This document shows, one piece after another, positions 16,247 to 51,299 of a DNA stretch of 64,000 bases (position 1 is the stretch's first letter; every line of letters begins with the position of its first letter). The stretch is from Akkermansia sp. (GTDB lineage: Bacteria > Verrucomicrobiota > Verrucomicrobiia > Verrucomicrobiales > Akkermansiaceae): contig JAUNRC010000003.1 in the NCBI GenBank assembly GCA_030535875.1, forward strand, positions 1-64,000, given 5' to 3'. The notes beneath the pieces were generated by a model. That model did not search any database, was not told the origin of the DNA, and was given only the letters and a program-made list of their open reading frames with translations. A program made the position numbers and the translations under genes.

Positions 16247-19200
16247 TTACTCGCCCTCGGGCAGGCTGTAATCGATGCCGGCGAGAGCCTGGTACAGGCG
16301 CCAGCGGCGTGCGATGTCAGCGGCCTCCATGTCGAGCAGCTTGTCGAAGTTGGCCTTGTTGTTCTTGGCCAGCAGACGGAAGCGGTTCTCGCTGAGCAGA
16401 GCCTCGCGCACGTCCTTCTTGGGCTTCTTGCTCTTGAGGGTGAGCGGGTTCTTGCCTTCCTTGGCGCGATCCGGGTTGTAGTTGTAGAGCAGCCAGCGAC
16501 CGCAGTCAACGGCAGCCTTCTGGCGGTCGAGTCCCTGAGCCATGTTGATGCCGTGGTTAATGCAGTGACTGTAAGCGATGACGAGTGCGGGACCGTCGTA
16601 TTCCTCAGCCTCCATGAGGGTGGTGAGGGTGTGCTGGTCATCAGAGCCCATGGCGATGGAGCCGACGTAGACGTTGCCGTAGGTCATGGCCATGTAACCG
16701 AGGTCCTTCTTCACCTGATCTTTACCGCGAGTTGCGAACTTGGCAACGGCACCGCGGGGGGTGGACTTGGAGCACTGACCGCCGGTGTTGGAGTACACCT
16801 CGGTGTCGAGCACGAGCACTTTAACATTGCGACCGGAGGCGAGGATGTGGTCCAGACCGCCGTAGCCGATGTCGTAGGACCAGCCGTCACCGCCGAGAAT
16901 CCACACGGACTTGCGGACGAGGTAGTCGGCATGAGCCTTGAGGGCTGCGAGGTCGGTATTGTCGCCGCAGGCAGCCTTGATGGCGGCTACGGTGGAGCGG
17001 GCGTTGTTGATGTCGGCTTCGGTCTTCTGCGGATTAGCCATGATTTCCTGTACAAGCTCGGCACCGATGGCGGGAACGGCGGCCTGCAGGAGTTCGATGG
17101 CGAATTGCTGCTTCTTGTCGAGGGATACTCGGAAACCGAGACCGAACTGAGCGTTGTCCTCGAAGAGGCTGTTGCACCATGCGGGGCCGCGGCCGTCGGC
17201 ATCGTGCGTCCAGGGGGTGGTGGGCAGGTTGCCGCCGTAGATGGAGGAGCAACCGGTGGCGTTGGCTACAACGAGGCGGTTGCCGAAGAGCTGACTGAGC
17301 AGCTTCACATACGGAGTCTCACCGCAACCGGCACAGGCACCGGAGAACTCAAAGAGCGGGCGTAGCAACTGGGCATCCTTCACCTTGGAGTTGTCGGTGA
17401 CGGTGCGGTCGTTGTCCGGCAGAGCCTCGAAGAACTTCCAGTTTTCGGCCTCGGGCTTGAGGGCCTCGGTGGCGGGAGTCATGGTAAGAGAAGCCGTGGG
17501 GCATACGCGGGAGCAAAGTGTACAACCCGTACAGTCGGAGGCGGACACCTGGATGACGTACTTCTTGCCGGCCCAGTCTTTGTGCATCTTGCTGGCATCG
17601 GCCGTCTTGAAGCTGTCGGGAGCGCCTTCGAGGTCGGCGGGGTCAATCATCTTGGCACGGATGGCAGCGTGGGGGCAGACCATGGTGCACTTGCCGCACT
17701 GGATACAGGCCTTGCTTGTCTCGGTCTTTTCGGGGGTCCACACGGGGATTTCGAGGGCGAGGTCGCGTTTCTCGTACTGAGTGGTACCGCTGGGGAAGGT
17801 GCCGTCGTCGGGCATCTCGCTCACGGTGACGGAGTTGCCGTTACCGGTGACAATCTTGCCGAGGACGTTGCGAACGAAGTCGGGCGGGTTGCCGGCGAGT
17901 GCCTCGGGGATTTCGTGGCCGGTGATGGTGGTGCCGAGGGGTACTTCGTGGAGGTTGGCCAGCGAGGCATCGACGGCGGCGATGTTCTTGGCGACGACCT
18001 CTTCACCCTTCTTGCCGTAGGTCTTCTTAATGGCCTCTTTGATGTAGCCCAGAGCCTCATCGGCGGGGATAACGCCGGCGAGATTGAAGAAGCAGGTCTG
18101 CATAATCATGTTGATGCGACCGCCCATGCCGGTGGCGCGGGCAACCTTGAAGGCGTCGATGCAGTAGACCTTGATATTCTTGTCGAGGATTTGCTGCTGC
18201 ATGCGGGCAGGCAGGCTGTCCCACACCTTCTCGGGGGCTACGTTGGTGTTGATGAGGAAGGTGGCGTTCTGCGCGGCGTTCTTCAGGAAGTCGAAGAGGT
18301 TGAGCAGGCTGGGCTGGTGCAGAGCGATGAAGTTGGCGTTGGTGATGAGGTAGGTGCTGTGAATCGGTGTGGTGCCGAAGCGCAGGTGAGATACCGTCGA
18401 GGAGCCGGACTTCTTGGAGTCGTACTCGAAATAGCCCTGAACGTAGAGGTCGGTGTGCTTGCCGATAATCTTAATGGCATCCTTGTTTGCACCCACGGTA
18501 CCATCGGAGCCGAGGCCGTAGAACATGCAGCGGGTCACGGTGTCGGGCTCGGTGGAGAAGGAGGGGTCGTAGGCAATGCTCTTGCCGGTGACATCGTCCT
18601 CAATACCCACGGCAAAGCCGGTCATGGGCTCGGGCTTGGCGAGCTCGTCGAACACGCCCTTGACCATGGCGGGGGTGAATTCCTTGGAGCCGAGACCATA
18701 GCGACCGCCGACAACCTTGGGCATGGCGTAGGGAAGGGTGCCGGCTACCTGAGCGTCGGCGAGGGTTTGTACAACATCCTGGAGGAGCGGCTCGCCCAGA
18801 CTGCCGGGTTCCTTGGTGCGGTCGAGAACGGCAATCTTCTGTACAGTCTTGGGCAGGGCGGCAATCACATCGGCTGCCGGGAAAGGACGGTACATGCGAA
18901 TCTTGAGCACGCCGACATCTTCGCCCATGGCATTGACGGCTTCGAGGGCAGCCTCGGCACCGGAGCCCATCATGATAATGACGCGGGTGGCAGAGGGGGA
19001 GCCGATGTACTCGACAAGGTCATAGTAGCGGCCGGTGAGATCACCGAACTTCTTCATGGCACCCTTGACAATGGCGGGTACGGCATCGTAGTACTTATTG
19101 ACGGTCTCGCGGCCCTGGAAGTAGACGTCGGGGTTCTGGGCGGTACCGCGAATGACGGGAGCATCGGGCGTGAGGCCGCGGGCGTGGAAATCATCGACCC

Positions 19201-19795
19201 ACTTCTGGTCAATCATGGCACGCAGGGTGTCGTCGGTGATGTCGGCAATCTTGCCTACTTCGTGGGAGGTACGGAAACCATCGAAGAAGTTGATGAAGGG
19301 TACGCGGCTTTCGAGGGTGGCGGCGTGAGCGATGGCGGCCATATCGGGAGCCTCCTGAGTGCTGGCACCGCAGAGCATGGCAAAGCCGGTGGAGCGGCAG
19401 CTCATCACGTCGCTGTGGTCACCGAAGATGGACAGACCCTGAGCGGCCAGAGCGCGGGCGGCAATGTGGAAGACGCAGGGGGTCAGCTCACCGGCAATCT
19501 TGAACATATTCGGAATCATCAGGAGCAGACCCTGAGATGCCGTGAAGGTGGTGGCAAGGGAGCCCGTCTGCAGAGCGCCGTGTACGGCACCGGCAGCACC
19601 GGCCTCACTTTCCATCTCGACGATGCTGGGGACCGTTCCCCAGAGGTTCTTGCGGTCTACGGCCGTCCAGGTCTCTGCCGATTCACCCATCGGAGAGGAC
19701 GGGGTGATGGGGTAGATGGCGGCCACTTCTGAACAACGGTACGCTACGGAGGCTACGGCCTCGTTGGCGTCTATGGTGCTGTATGTAGTGCTCAT
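16247..19795 (-). CDS. nifJ: Pyruvate:ferredoxin (flavodoxin) oxidoreductase
   Basis: 1182 residues, a single-chain enzyme that oxidises pyruvate to acetyl-CoA and CO2, passing electrons to ferredoxin or flavodoxin. N-terminal DANEAVASVAYRCSEVAAIYPITPSSPMGE is the conserved opening of domain I. Two 4Fe-4S clusters are seen at CIQCGKCTMVCP (about residue 698) and CTGCTLCSRVCP (about 756), and the proximal-cluster/TPP domain cysteines at CAGCGETPYVK (about 820) and ATGCSSIYGGN. The TPP motif GDGWSYDIGYGG...YSNTGGQ is near 975-1005. Length is in the family's usual range. The start at 19795 is chosen over an upstream frame because conserved sequence begins there. It has its own promoter with a structured 77-nt leader and a strong terminator. 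Its presence indicates anaerobic metabolism. Confidence 0.97.
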   Translation of the reverse strand: MSTTYSTIDANEAVASVAYRCSEVAAIYPITPSSPMGESAETWTAVDRKNLWGTVPSIVEMESEAGAAGAVHGALQTGSLATTFTASQGLLLMIPNMFKIAGELTPCVFHIAARALAAQGLSIFGDHSDVMSCRSTGFAMLCGASTQEAPDMAAIAHAATLESRVPFINFFDGFRTSHEVGKIADITDDTLRAMIDQKWVDDFHARGLTPDAPVIRGTAQNPDVYFQGRETVNKYYDAVPAIVKGAMKKFGDLTGRYYDLVEYIGSPSATRVIIMMGSGAEAALEAVNAMGEDVGVLKIRMYRPFPAADVIAALPKTVQKIAVLDRTKEPGSLGEPLLQDVVQTLADAQVAGTLPYAMPKVVGGRYGLGSKEFTPAMVKGVFDELAKPEPMTGFAVGIEDDVTGKSIAYDPSFSTEPDTVTRCMFYGLGSDGTVGANKDAIKIIGKHTDLYVQGYFEYDSKKSGSSTVSHLRFGTTPIHSTYLITNANFIALHQPSLLNLFDFLKNAAQNATFLINTNVAPEKVWDSLPARMQQQILDKNIKVYCIDAFKVARATGMGGRINMIMQTCFFNLAGVIPADEALGYIKEAIKKTYGKKGEEVVAKNIAAVDASLANLHEVPLGTTITGHEIPEALAGNPPDFVRNVLGKIVTGNGNSVTVSEMPDDGTFPSGTTQYEKRDLALEIPVWTPEKTETSKACIQCGKCTMVCPHAAIRAKMIDPADLEGAPDSFKTADASKMHKDWAGKKYVIQVSASDCTGCTLCSRVCPTASLTMTPATEALKPEAENWKFFEALPDNDRTVTDNSKVKDAQLLRPLFEFSGACAGCGETPYVKLLSQLFGNRLVVANATGCSSIYGGNLPTTPWTHDADGRGPAWCNSLFEDNAQFGLGFRVSLDKKQQFAIELLQAAVPAIGAELVQEIMANPQKTEADINNARSTVAAIKAACGDNTDLAALKAHADYLVRKSVWILGGDGWSYDIGYGGLDHILASGRNVKVLVLDTEVYSNTGGQCSKSTPRGAVAKFATRGKDQVKKDLGYMAMTYGNVYVGSIAMGSDDQHTLTTLMEAEEYDGPALVIAYSHCINHGINMAQGLDRQKAAVDCGRWLLYNYNPDRAKEGKNPLTLKSKKPKKDVREALLSENRFRLLAKNNKANFDKLLDMEAADIARRWRLYQALAGIDYSLPEGE

Positions 19796-47828: not shown

Positions 47829-47867
47829 GAGGGCGGCGGTCGGGGGATGAACCCTGCCGCCGCTCTT
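47829..47867 (+). terminator. Terminator-like hairpin between fabF and the next gene
   Basis: About 11-12 bp of stem (GCGGCGG 47833-47839 with CCGCCGC 47857-47863 plus flanking pairs). It ends 10 nt before the next ATG and has no T-run, so it may act as an attenuator or mRNA 3' end. Confidence 0.4.
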
Positions 47868-47877
47868 GTATGAACAG

Positions 47878-48369
47878 ATGAAAGAAGTTCTCAGCAAGTT
47901 GTTGCAAGTTGTTCGCCGTTGTGCGGCGGCGCTGCGCCTGCCGGCCGGCATGACATCATTGGATATGTTGTTGCTGCGCTGGGTCGGCCTGAGTGTGCCG
48001 GTACTGCTGGTGGTGATGGTGCTGCTGCTGACCAATGGTCTGGAGTGGGCCGATGAGGCACAGTTGTACCTGATATGCGATGCTCCGTTTTATCTGGAGG
48101 CCGAGGCGGCGCAGAATGTTGTACCCGGGCCGGTAGGGATGTTTGCCCTCTGTGCGATTGTCACCTTGTATTTATCGCTGGTGTTGCTGAGAGAGCCGAC
48201 GGTTGTCGGTCGGTTGCAGATGGTGGTACCGGCGCTGGTGGCGGCATTGCTGCCCGGCTTGCTCTGTGTGCTGTGGGATTGTGTGTTCCCGGTGGCGCCG
48301 CTCGTGTTGTGCGTGCTGCTGACATGGGGGCTGACGTGGGTGCCGTTTTATAATAGCCGGAAGTCATGA
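47878..48369 (+). CDS. Membrane protein of unknown function upstream of recR
   Basis: 163 residues, with hydrophobic segments at about 30-52 (WVGLSVPVLLVVMVLLLTNG), 80-103 (VGMFALCAIVTLYLSLVLL) and 112-150 (MVVPALVAALLPGLLCVLWD). The stop overlaps the recR start by 4 bp (ATGA), so the two are translationally coupled, though a functional link to recombination is not obvious. The ATG at 47878 is chosen; an in-frame TTG at 47866 lies in the hairpin. Family not recognised. Confidence 0.7.
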   Translation: MKEVLSKLLQVVRRCAAALRLPAGMTSLDMLLLRWVGLSVPVLLVVMVLLLTNGLEWADEAQLYLICDAPFYLEAEAAQNVVPGPVGMFALCAIVTLYLSLVLLREPTVVGRLQMVVPALVAALLPGLLCVLWDCVFPVAPLVLCVLLTWGLTWVPFYNSRKS

Positions 48370-48974
48370 AAGCGCAGGATTATCCGCGACAGGTACAGGA
48401 ACTGATAGCTCGCCTCAAGCGCATGCCGGGGGTGGGCAGTCGTGGTGCGGAGCGCCATGCCTTGTGGTTTCTGCAGCACGGCAGGAACGACGCTCGAGCT
48501 CTGGCCGAGGCTCTGTTGGCCGCTGCTGATGAGGTGGGCTCCTGTCCTCAGTGCGGTTTCTTTTCGCAGAAGGGGGAACTGTGTACTGCTTGCAGCGACC
48601 CGGCTCGTGATGGCGCATTGCTTTGTGTGGTGGAGCAGCCCACGGATGTGCTGCCCATTGAGCGCTGCGGAACATTCCGAGGCTTGTACCATTGTTTAGG
48701 TGGCAAGATTTCCCCGTTGGATGGAGTGCTGCCGGAGGATTTGTCGGTGGCTCAGTTGTTGGAGCGAGTGAAGAAGGCCCCCGGATGTGAAGTTATTTTG
48801 GCAGTGGGGAGCGATGTGGAGGGCGAGACGACGGCTCTTTATCTGGCGGAGCAACTGGCGCAGTCAGATTGTCGGGTGAGCCGTTTGGCGCAGGGTATGC
48901 CGGCCGGAGCCGGTCTGGGGCAGGCCGATGCTGTGACTCTCATGCGTGCTCTGGAGGGGAGAAAGGGACTTTGA
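48366..48974 (+). CDS. recR: Recombination protein RecR
   Basis: 202 residues, standard size. RecR works with RecF/RecO to load RecA at gaps. Visible: N-terminal helix-hairpin-helix LKRMPGVGSRGAERHA, a C4 zinc finger CPQCGFFSQKGELCTAC, the Toprim domain starting LLCVVEQPTDVLPIE with YHCLGGKISPLDG, and the Toprim EVILAVGSDVEGETTALYLA. GGAAG just before the ATG could serve as ribosome binding site. Confidence 0.96.
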   Translation: MKAQDYPRQVQELIARLKRMPGVGSRGAERHALWFLQHGRNDARALAEALLAAADEVGSCPQCGFFSQKGELCTACSDPARDGALLCVVEQPTDVLPIERCGTFRGLYHCLGGKISPLDGVLPEDLSVAQLLERVKKAPGCEVILAVGSDVEGETTALYLAEQLAQSDCRVSRLAQGMPAGAGLGQADAVTLMRALEGRKGL

Positions 48975-49061: not shown

Positions 49062-50777
49062 ATGAGTACAAGCGTTGCAGATGAAATAGCCGCTGTTCCG
49101 GCAGCAGCGGGGTGTAGGCGTATGTATGCCCGAACGGAACAGGCGCTCAGCCCGGTGCCTGAGGCTTTGCAACAGCGAGAGGAATTGCGCTGTATCGGTA
49201 TGCAGAGTGATGAGGGAGCGGCCTTCGCGGCTGCCGGTGAGGCCCAACTGACCGGGCAGTTGACCCTGTGCTGTGGTAGCGGCGGATGGGGAAATTGGCA
49301 GATGTGCGGCGGATTGTACGAGGCGCATTACTCTGCTTCGCCGTTGGTGGCGCTGGCTCCGCATGTGCCCGCAAGCACCATGGGAAGCAGGTATTTTCAG
49401 GAGTCGCGTCCGGAATGGGGGCTGCGTGATTGTACGTCGTATTGCGAAATGGCTTATGAACCCGGTCAGGCGGTGCGGAGTGTAGCCGAGGCGATTAGGG
49501 TGGCATGTTCGCAACGGACGACGGCAGCCGTGGTGCTCCCTTCCGATGTCATGAATTGTCCGGCAAGCTGTGAGACGGAGTTTCCCTACTTCCCGAGCAT
49601 GTCTGCACGGGCAACGGCTGAGCCGAGTATGAGCGAGGTGGCCCGTCTGGCGGAATTGTTGAACAGGAGCCGTAAGGTGGTATTTCTCTGCGGGCGTGGC
49701 TGTGAAGGTGCCCACGATATTCTGACGGAGTTGGCTCAGCGGCTCTGTGCGCCCATCGCCTACACTCTGCGCGGTAAGGATATTATGGAGAAAGACAATC
49801 CCTGTGCTGTGGGGATGATTGGTTTGTTGGGCTGGGGAGATGCTCCGGCTGCGGTGCAGGTGGCGGATTTGCTGGTGCTGTGGGGAACGGATTTTCCTTA
49901 TGGCTGCTTTTTGCCGGAACATGGTCAGGTTGCGCAGGTTGATATCGACGGCGCGGCGCCCGGGCGGCGGGTGCGCCTGTGCCATGCGGTGCAGGGTGAT
50001 GTGGCCCGTACGGCAAGTTTGCTACTGCCCTTGCTGCGGGGGCACCGTTCCGATGAGTTTCTTGCACGCTCGCTTATGCGGCACGGCAAGGCGCTCGTTG
50101 CGTTGGAACGTTCGTTGCGCGAGCAGGATGAGAGGGCTCCCATTCGCCCGGAGTATCTCACGCGTATCCTGAGCAGTCATGCCGAGCCCGATGCTGTTTT
50201 TACCATTGACATCGGGCCGCCCGTTATATGGGCCGCCCGGTATCTTCAGGCCTTCGGTAAGCGCCGGCTCATCGGTTCGTTCAAATATGGTGCAACGGGT
50301 TGTGCACTTGCCATGGCCATCGGGTGCAAGGCGGCATCGCCCTCGCGGCAGGTCATTGCCCTTTGTGCGGCCGAGAGTTTCAATCGTCAGCTCGGTGAGT
50401 TGCTTACGCTGGCGAGAGAGGGGCTCAGCGTGAAAGTTGTGGTGTACAATGTCTCCTCACCGCATGTCGTGAACATGCCGGGGAGTGCCTCTTCTTCCGT
50501 CGTTGCTGATTTGACGATGGTGGCCCGAGGGTTGGGGATTGAGGCTGAGCGGGCGGAGCAGGTGGGCGGTGTGATGGCTGCCGTGCGCCGTTGTCTGGCG
50601 GCACAGGGGCCGTTCCTTCTTGATGTGCAACTCGATCGGCACGCCTTGGCACAGCCGCCGGGCTCGGACCTGCTGCGAACTATTCGCCACCTCAGCGATA
50701 AGGAATCCTGTAACTCTCGCTGCGAACTCGATACCGTTAAGCGCCTGCTCTTCGGCAACAGTCATTTTTATAGCTGA
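49062..50777 (+). CDS. PoxB-like protein lacking TPP/Mg ligands (probable pseudoenzyme)
   Basis: 571 residues aligning along its whole length with pyruvate dehydrogenase (quinone)/pyruvate oxidase: FAAAGEAQLTGQLTLCCGSG, MGSRYFQES, VVLPSDVM, ALRGKDIMEKDNPCAVGMIG, GPPVIWAARYLQAFGKRRLI. The key residues have changed. The catalytic Glu of the RHE motif reads QSDEGAA (Asp50). The TPP/Mg motif GDG is AAE (436-438), and the Asn about 27 residues later is Val464. The FAD-binding middle domain looks intact. It therefore probably binds no thiamine diphosphate and may be non-catalytic or repurposed. The ATG at 49062 is preferred to an upstream TTG at 49032. It is convergent with ruvC, 15 bp apart. Confidence 0.85.
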   Translation: MSTSVADEIAAVPAAAGCRRMYARTEQALSPVPEALQQREELRCIGMQSDEGAAFAAAGEAQLTGQLTLCCGSGGWGNWQMCGGLYEAHYSASPLVALAPHVPASTMGSRYFQESRPEWGLRDCTSYCEMAYEPGQAVRSVAEAIRVACSQRTTAAVVLPSDVMNCPASCETEFPYFPSMSARATAEPSMSEVARLAELLNRSRKVVFLCGRGCEGAHDILTELAQRLCAPIAYTLRGKDIMEKDNPCAVGMIGLLGWGDAPAAVQVADLLVLWGTDFPYGCFLPEHGQVAQVDIDGAAPGRRVRLCHAVQGDVARTASLLLPLLRGHRSDEFLARSLMRHGKALVALERSLREQDERAPIRPEYLTRILSSHAEPDAVFTIDIGPPVIWAARYLQAFGKRRLIGSFKYGATGCALAMAIGCKAASPSRQVIALCAAESFNRQLGELLTLAREGLSVKVVVYNVSSPHVVNMPGSASSSVVADLTMVARGLGIEAERAEQVGGVMAAVRRCLAAQGPFLLDVQLDRHALAQPPGSDLLRTIRHLSDKESCNSRCELDTVKRLLFGNSHFYS

Positions 50778-50792: not shown

Positions 50793-51299
50793 TCAGATGT
50801 ACTTGCGGTCGCGGAAAATGTGAGCTTTTATCGGGTCGGCCGCAGCAAGGTGGGTGAAACCGATGGCCAGCGCATCGGCCGCGTCGGGGGCGGGAGTCTC
50901 GGTCAGTTGCAGCATAGCTCTCATCATGAAGGCAACCTGCTGTTTGCCGGCGGCACCTCTGCCGACGGTAGCCAGCTTAACGCAGGTGGGAGGGTACTCC
51001 ATGATGGGCAGGTCATAGCGGGCTGCCGCCAGCACCGTGGCCGCTCTCGCCGAGCCCATGGTGATGGCGGTGCGGTGGGATTGTACATAGATGATGGCCT
51101 CGATGGCCAGTTCATCGGGCTGCCATTGTTCTATCAGCGAGCAGACTTTCTCGTGAATGGCCAGCAGACAGCGGCTCTGCGGTAATTTTTGCGGTAGTGA
51201 CAAGGTGCCGTAGTCCAGTGCAACGGCACGGCGATGGTCGCCGTCCAGCACCGCATAGCCGGTGTTGCGGATGGCCGGGTCTATGGATATCACGCGCAT
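50793..51299 (-). CDS. ruvC: Holliday junction resolvase RuvC
   Basis: 168 residues. MRVISIDPAIRNTGYAVLD holds catalytic Asp7; LAIEAIIYVQSH holds Glu67; APDAADALAIGFTH holds the final acidic pair (Asp139, Asp142). SARAATVLAAA and GRGAAGKQQVAFM are also RuvC-typical. RuvC cleaves Holliday junctions with RuvAB. It lies 30 bp after ispE in the same direction; ruvA and ruvB are not adjacent. Confidence 0.95.
   Translation of the reverse strand: MRVISIDPAIRNTGYAVLDGDHRRAVALDYGTLSLPQKLPQSRCLLAIHEKVCSLIEQWQPDELAIEAIIYVQSHRTAITMGSARAATVLAAARYDLPIMEYPPTCVKLATVGRGAAGKQQVAFMMRAMLQLTETPAPDAADALAIGFTHLAAADPIKAHIFRDRKYI

Follow-up and report, generated by a model that had tools for sequence, protein, structure and literature searches.

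A PoxB homologue of gut Akkermansia that has lost its ThDP/Mg signature and shows constraint shifted to the FAD domain

PoxB-type enzymes are textbook two-cofactor enzymes, and in their relatives the acetohydroxyacid synthases FAD is considered a relic with no redox role. In the ThDP superfamily, loss of catalysis with retention of the fold is exemplified by the yeast pseudoenzyme Thi3, a regulator, and regulators of this type retain ThDP binding. The closest described systems to the protein analysed here are E. coli PoxB (pyruvate:ubiquinone oxidoreductase, 3EYA/3EY9), C. glutamicum PQO (pyruvate:quinone oxidoreductase, 9EV3-9EV6), which has been solved with FAD and ThDP-Mg, and the canonical PoxB of Akkermansia itself. 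Our literature search found no work on degenerate PoxB in Akkermansia or on ThDP pseudoenzymes of this kind. The gene lies in a 64,000-nucleotide stretch of Akkermansia sp. DNA (contig JAUNRC010000003.1, positions 1 to 64,000; the window), and we judge its product to represent a genuine pseudoenzyme clade within a known family, one in which constraint has shifted between domains.

The window protein has the three-domain fold and domain order of E. coli PoxB and aligns with it end to end (residues 3-535, E 7e-109), in agreement with a first-pass annotation made from the letters alone, which had also correctly described the frame as free of frameshifts. The 571-residue frame begins at the ATG used as start position in nearly all relatives and contains no internal stops (Table 1). 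All three Pfam TPP_enzyme domains are matched, and the best NCBIfam match is the PoxB model, at 484.8 bits against an equivalog cut-off of 792 bits, a comparison scored for the window protein only. A full PoxB-like fold is predicted by AlphaFold2 (pLDDT 80.2, pTM 0.80), and the nearest solved folds over the whole chain are C. glutamicum PQO (9ev4/9ev6), the best structural match, and E. coli PoxB (3eya/3ey9), with TM-scores of 0.84-0.86. By fold and by sequence over its full length, the protein thus falls within the PoxB/PQO family.

Table 1. Features of the degenerate poxB gene, its product and its surroundings in the window.
Feature	Position	Strand	Basis
Degenerate PoxB of 571 aa, frame open over its full length (ATG at 49062, stop codon at 50775-50777)	49062..50777	+	Profile/sequence matches, AlphaFold2 model
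PYR (N-terminal ThDP-binding) domain, aa 1-185; relaxed, 24/47 canonical-invariant residues kept	49062..49616	+	
Q-S-D in place of R48-H49-E50; catalytic Glu lost	49203..49211	+	
Central FAD domain, aa 186-345; 23/23 canonical-invariant residues kept, slowest domain within the degenerate clade	49617..50096	+	
PP (C-terminal ThDP-binding) domain, aa 346-530; retains its core but not the cofactor loop, 26/40 canonical-invariant residues kept	50097..50651	+	
AAE in place of GDG (diphosphate/Mg loop), aa 436-438	50367..50375	+	
Val464 in place of the metal-ligand Asn (E. coli N460)	50451..50453	+	
C-terminal tail, aa 531-571; last residues VKRLLFGNSHFYS	50652..50774	+	
recR, upstream neighbour here and of the degenerate copies in G055 and G039	48366..48974	+	
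ruvC, convergent downstream neighbour	50793..51299	-	
Pyruvate:ferredoxin oxidoreductase (PFOR), intact alternative ThDP-dependent pyruvate route	16280..19780	-	

What sets the protein apart from both solved enzymes is its cofactor site. In E. coli numbering, R48-H49-E50 has become Q-S-D, G432-D433-G434 has become A-A-E and N460 has become V, although none of these seven positions varies among 36 canonical Akkermansia PoxBs; the alignment with these copies bears out the substitutions exactly as they had been read in the first pass. Both the GDG...N motif for ThDP/Mg and the catalytic Glu of the RHE motif are accordingly missing, and with them the residues with which C. glutamicum PQO holds ThDP-Mg. 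In the wider ThDP-decarboxylase superfamily, conservation reaches 98% for the first Gly of GDGX, 91% for the Asp (Glu in 7%) and 94% for Glu51 (PMC3534367), so that simultaneous loss of all these sites goes beyond ordinary variation, whereas Glu50 to Asp taken alone would be a mild change. The loss is also wider than three sites: of 87 positions in the two ThDP domains that are constant across the canonical Akkermansia copies plus E. coli PoxB, the window protein differs at 37. Hence, of the proposal that a full-length frame had been retained with targeted loss of the catalytic apparatus, the first half stands and the second needs qualifying: the loss is not narrowly targeted, as relaxation extends to the PYR domain and to much of the PP domain. 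At the level of sequence, the ThDP signature of the window protein is gone and FAD binding seems retained, unlike the situation in Thi3-type regulators. The C-terminal tail differs from that of E. coli PoxB, and its ending (VKRLLFGNSHFYS) is similar to that of the sister canonical clade (VKRLLFGNRHFFS; KRLLFGN), which is suggestive, though only that, of a use perhaps retained by the tail.

Degenerate copies are not confined to the window. Among 76 genomes of the genus, mostly metagenome-assembled, PoxB is degenerate in 10, canonical in 37 (one of these a fragment only) and absent from about 29, an absence that may partly reflect incomplete genomes; given this number, the gene appears to be readily lost. 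Six degenerate copies (the window, G031, G040, G055, G039 and G025) form one clade with support of 100/100, in a group dominated by herbivore-gut assemblies, and the five nearest relatives of the window copy are all degenerate, contrary to the scenario of simple decay in a single copy among intact relatives. The other four (G050, G059, G014 and G030) are related or independently degenerate, and a single origin of all ten is compatible with the data (AU p 0.31). A sequencing or assembly artefact is ruled out by the recurrence of degenerate copies in independent assemblies from sheep, water buffalo, goat, horse and roe deer. None of the ten degenerate genomes shows a canonical PoxB beside the degenerate copy, the only other candidate being an ALS-like protein of about 25% identity, so that the protein is unlikely to serve a canonical PoxB of its own genome as regulatory partner. 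As a separate observation, PoxB-like proteins at E <= 1e-60 were found only in the window's genus among 145 genomes covering 16 genera of the family, which suggests either acquisition at the base of Akkermansia or loss in other lineages of the family.

The ten copies differ in how far the ThDP site has eroded. Both the GDG Asp and its partner Asn are lost in nine, the Glu in six. Within the six-member clade the triplet equivalent to GDG is different in each copy (AAE, HAG, QGS, RAG, SAS, TVD), while L047 and L048 have TAE in common. The copy of G050 retains RHE with SSE in place of GDG, suggesting that ThDP loss begins at the metal/diphosphate site; L030 has an intact RHE motif and no GDG, and in L031 several deletions have shortened the PYR domain. 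The weakest degenerate case is the copy of G059 (L045), with a GES triplet, an intact Asn and a C-terminus cut by the contig end. Even the most eroded copy gives a confident full-length AlphaFold2 model (pLDDT 81.5).

Degenerate and canonical genes are orthologous and partly occupy the same position. Convergent ruvC lies 3' of canonical poxB in G027, G034, G041, G019 and G037 and of the degenerate copies in G014, G030 and G050, as it does in the window, which ties both kinds of copy to one chromosomal position. The canonical copies (e.g. L012, L008, L035), at about 41-48% identity to the window protein, have RHE, GDG and Asn all intact and an FAD domain that is not specially conserved. Two further observations concern the surroundings. 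In G039, ruvC is instead found between an Ank gene and an FtsB-like gene (L056, around 681-1200), so the locus has been rearranged. A gene for a small hydrophobic protein between fabF and recR (47866-48369) shows about 59-62% identity to its counterparts in G039 and G055, against 83-89% for its neighbours, and is thus much faster evolving.

In the degenerate clade, constraint has moved to the FAD domain. The first-pass annotation had called this domain well kept, and indeed the window protein retains 23/23 of its invariants compared to 50/87 for PYR and PP together (Fisher p=3e-5). Across the six-member clade, FAD invariants number 23/23 in five copies and 20/23 in the sixth, with 36-57/87 in the ThDP domains (p 0.015 to 8e-8); L030 is the only degenerate copy in which the contrast is non-significant. 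Tree lengths within the clade are 6.02 for PYR, 1.22 for FAD and 3.15 for PP, whereas three canonical clades give 0.77/1.12/0.83, 2.31/1.71/1.57 and 1.26/2.01/1.33, i.e. the ThDP domains evolve at 2.6-4.9 times the rate of the FAD domain in the degenerate clade and at 0.6-1.35 times in the canonical ones. Compared to a canonical clade of similar synonymous divergence, FAD-domain identity is 74% rather than 76%, while PYR identity falls from 70 to 41% and PP identity from 77 to 54%. Divergence at four-fold sites is equal across the domains (0.56-0.63) and lies near the 0.54-0.62 of recR, ispE and ruvC, neighbours that show 83-88% amino-acid identity in the same comparisons. The contrast between FAD and ThDP domains therefore arises from selection on the protein, and recombination of the FAD segment or a low local mutation rate is ruled out as its source. 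Overall amino-acid divergence is high, with the window protein 51-60% identical to the copies of species whose gyrB is 91-96% identical; horizontal transfer of an old allele is not needed to account for this, the synonymous divergence being like that of recR, ispE and ruvC, although that of gyrB is lower. We note that canonical PoxB, too, is far more diverged than gyrB at synonymous sites between close species (0.52 vs 0.10 for G027/G015), a gap, seen in L022/L012 and other pairs, that could reflect codon bias in gyrB or exchange of one gene.

Based on these data, we consider it probable that the gene is a PoxB orthologue whose product no longer binds ThDP/Mg or oxidises pyruvate and which purifying selection keeps as a ThDP-independent flavoprotein. 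Whole-gene neutrality (w=1) is rejected by pairwise codon models in each of the degenerate pairs tested (2dlnL 149-277), with dN/dS well below 1. Synonymous divergence is saturated for all degenerate pairs except L047/L048, for which dS is 1.17 and w is 0.14, similarly distant canonical pairs having about 0.05; as both copies carry TAE, the loss most likely predates their divergence, and the constraint measured would be that acting since then. The alignment of relatives thus places the variant in a conserved clade with dN/dS far below 1, and the pseudoenzyme reading of the first-pass annotation gains support from the degenerate clade, the open frames and the FAD domain. The copies combine residue loss relative to active homologues with intact frames and purifying selection across species, and a pseudogene would be expected to show neither open frames nor whole-gene w well below 1. 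Counting against a retained flavoprotein are the very high amino-acid divergence, the frequent loss of the gene, the saturated dS, the largely metagenome-assembled origin of the genomes and a PYR domain close to neutral in L028/L031 (w 0.39, 2dlnL 4; the pairwise PYR test of L001/L028, with a negative 2dlnL, was left out).

The same observations lead to an alternative, unlikely in our view, in which lineages using PFOR can do without PoxB and are slowly losing the gene, its frames open by chance or recency. Absence from many relatives, the interspersion of species with lost, degenerate and canonical copies on the gyrB tree and the near-neutral PYR domain in two copies are all in line with slow decay. 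So is the distribution of cytochrome bd, with which quinone-linked oxidases are usually paired; it is present in 36/37 canonical, 6/10 degenerate and 21/29 PoxB-absent genomes and hence more often missing where PoxB is non-canonical (raw p=0.0015). This link, which hinted at relaxed respiration, loses significance on phylogenetically independent pairs, however. Against slow decay, 10/10 frames have stayed open although neutral drift at such divergences yields many stops (0/300 simulated runs were free of stops at 0.2 substitutions per site), and the FAD-domain invariants are intact despite erosion elsewhere and even synonymous divergence. Across the genus, cytochrome bd is missing from 13 of the 76 genomes, several of them near-complete (G053, G056, G066, G075), and some Akkermansia lineages seem to lack it through loss.

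Conservation within the degenerate clade also extends to two parts of the PP domain (aa 361-400 and 421-440), as expected for a scaffold or interface, and 33 positions, many in the FAD domain, are fixed in the six-member clade and different or variable in canonical copies. Both observations could also fit a new catalytic activity, with the former ThDP pocket remodelled for another ligand or reaction and FAD still used; a shared new site should be conserved, however, and the GDG-equivalent triplet and the PYR pocket residues vary among clade members, making this reading improbable. That ThDP is still bound via altered residues, with weak pyruvate oxidase activity, is very improbable indeed, since the occasional ability of Asp or Glu to stand in (7% of superfamily members have Glu at D444 of GDGX; PMC3534367), the Glu kept in L004, L030, L047 and L048 and the GES plus Asn of L045 are outweighed by replacement of the GDG Asp by Ala/Gly/Val/Ser and of the partner Asn by V/Y/R/D/A in 9/10 copies, and, within the window's clade, by the loss of most pocket residues of the PYR domain.

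Returning to a ThDP-independent flavoprotein, we propose the following mode of action. The window protein would neither bind ThDP nor oxidise pyruvate, the latter being left to PFOR. Degenerate PoxB would still bind FAD, as far as its conserved residues can tell, and would keep a PoxB-like assembly, perhaps including the contact made by the C-terminal tail. It may then act via the flavin or the surface of the FAD domain, either as a redox carrier or sensor in which another donor takes the place of hydroxyethyl-ThDP, or as a binding partner without catalysis. More tentatively, the clade may have turned from a pyruvate oxidase using ThDP and FAD to an FAD-only redox enzyme, sensor or binding partner, of which intermediates survive (L030, L031).

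In these proteins evolution has separated the two cofactors, one pocket being gone and the other domain constrained, and intact, intermediate and strongly eroded copies are found in one genus. The degenerate PoxBs therefore offer a chance to test what the FAD domain of the superfamily does alone, an old question given the FAD of acetohydroxyacid synthases. In addition, annotations of 'pyruvate oxidase' in gut Akkermansia metagenomes may label proteins unable to oxidise pyruvate. For the Akkermansia of herbivore guts, the keeping of a whole protein after loss of its ThDP pocket suggests a use other than the original reaction.
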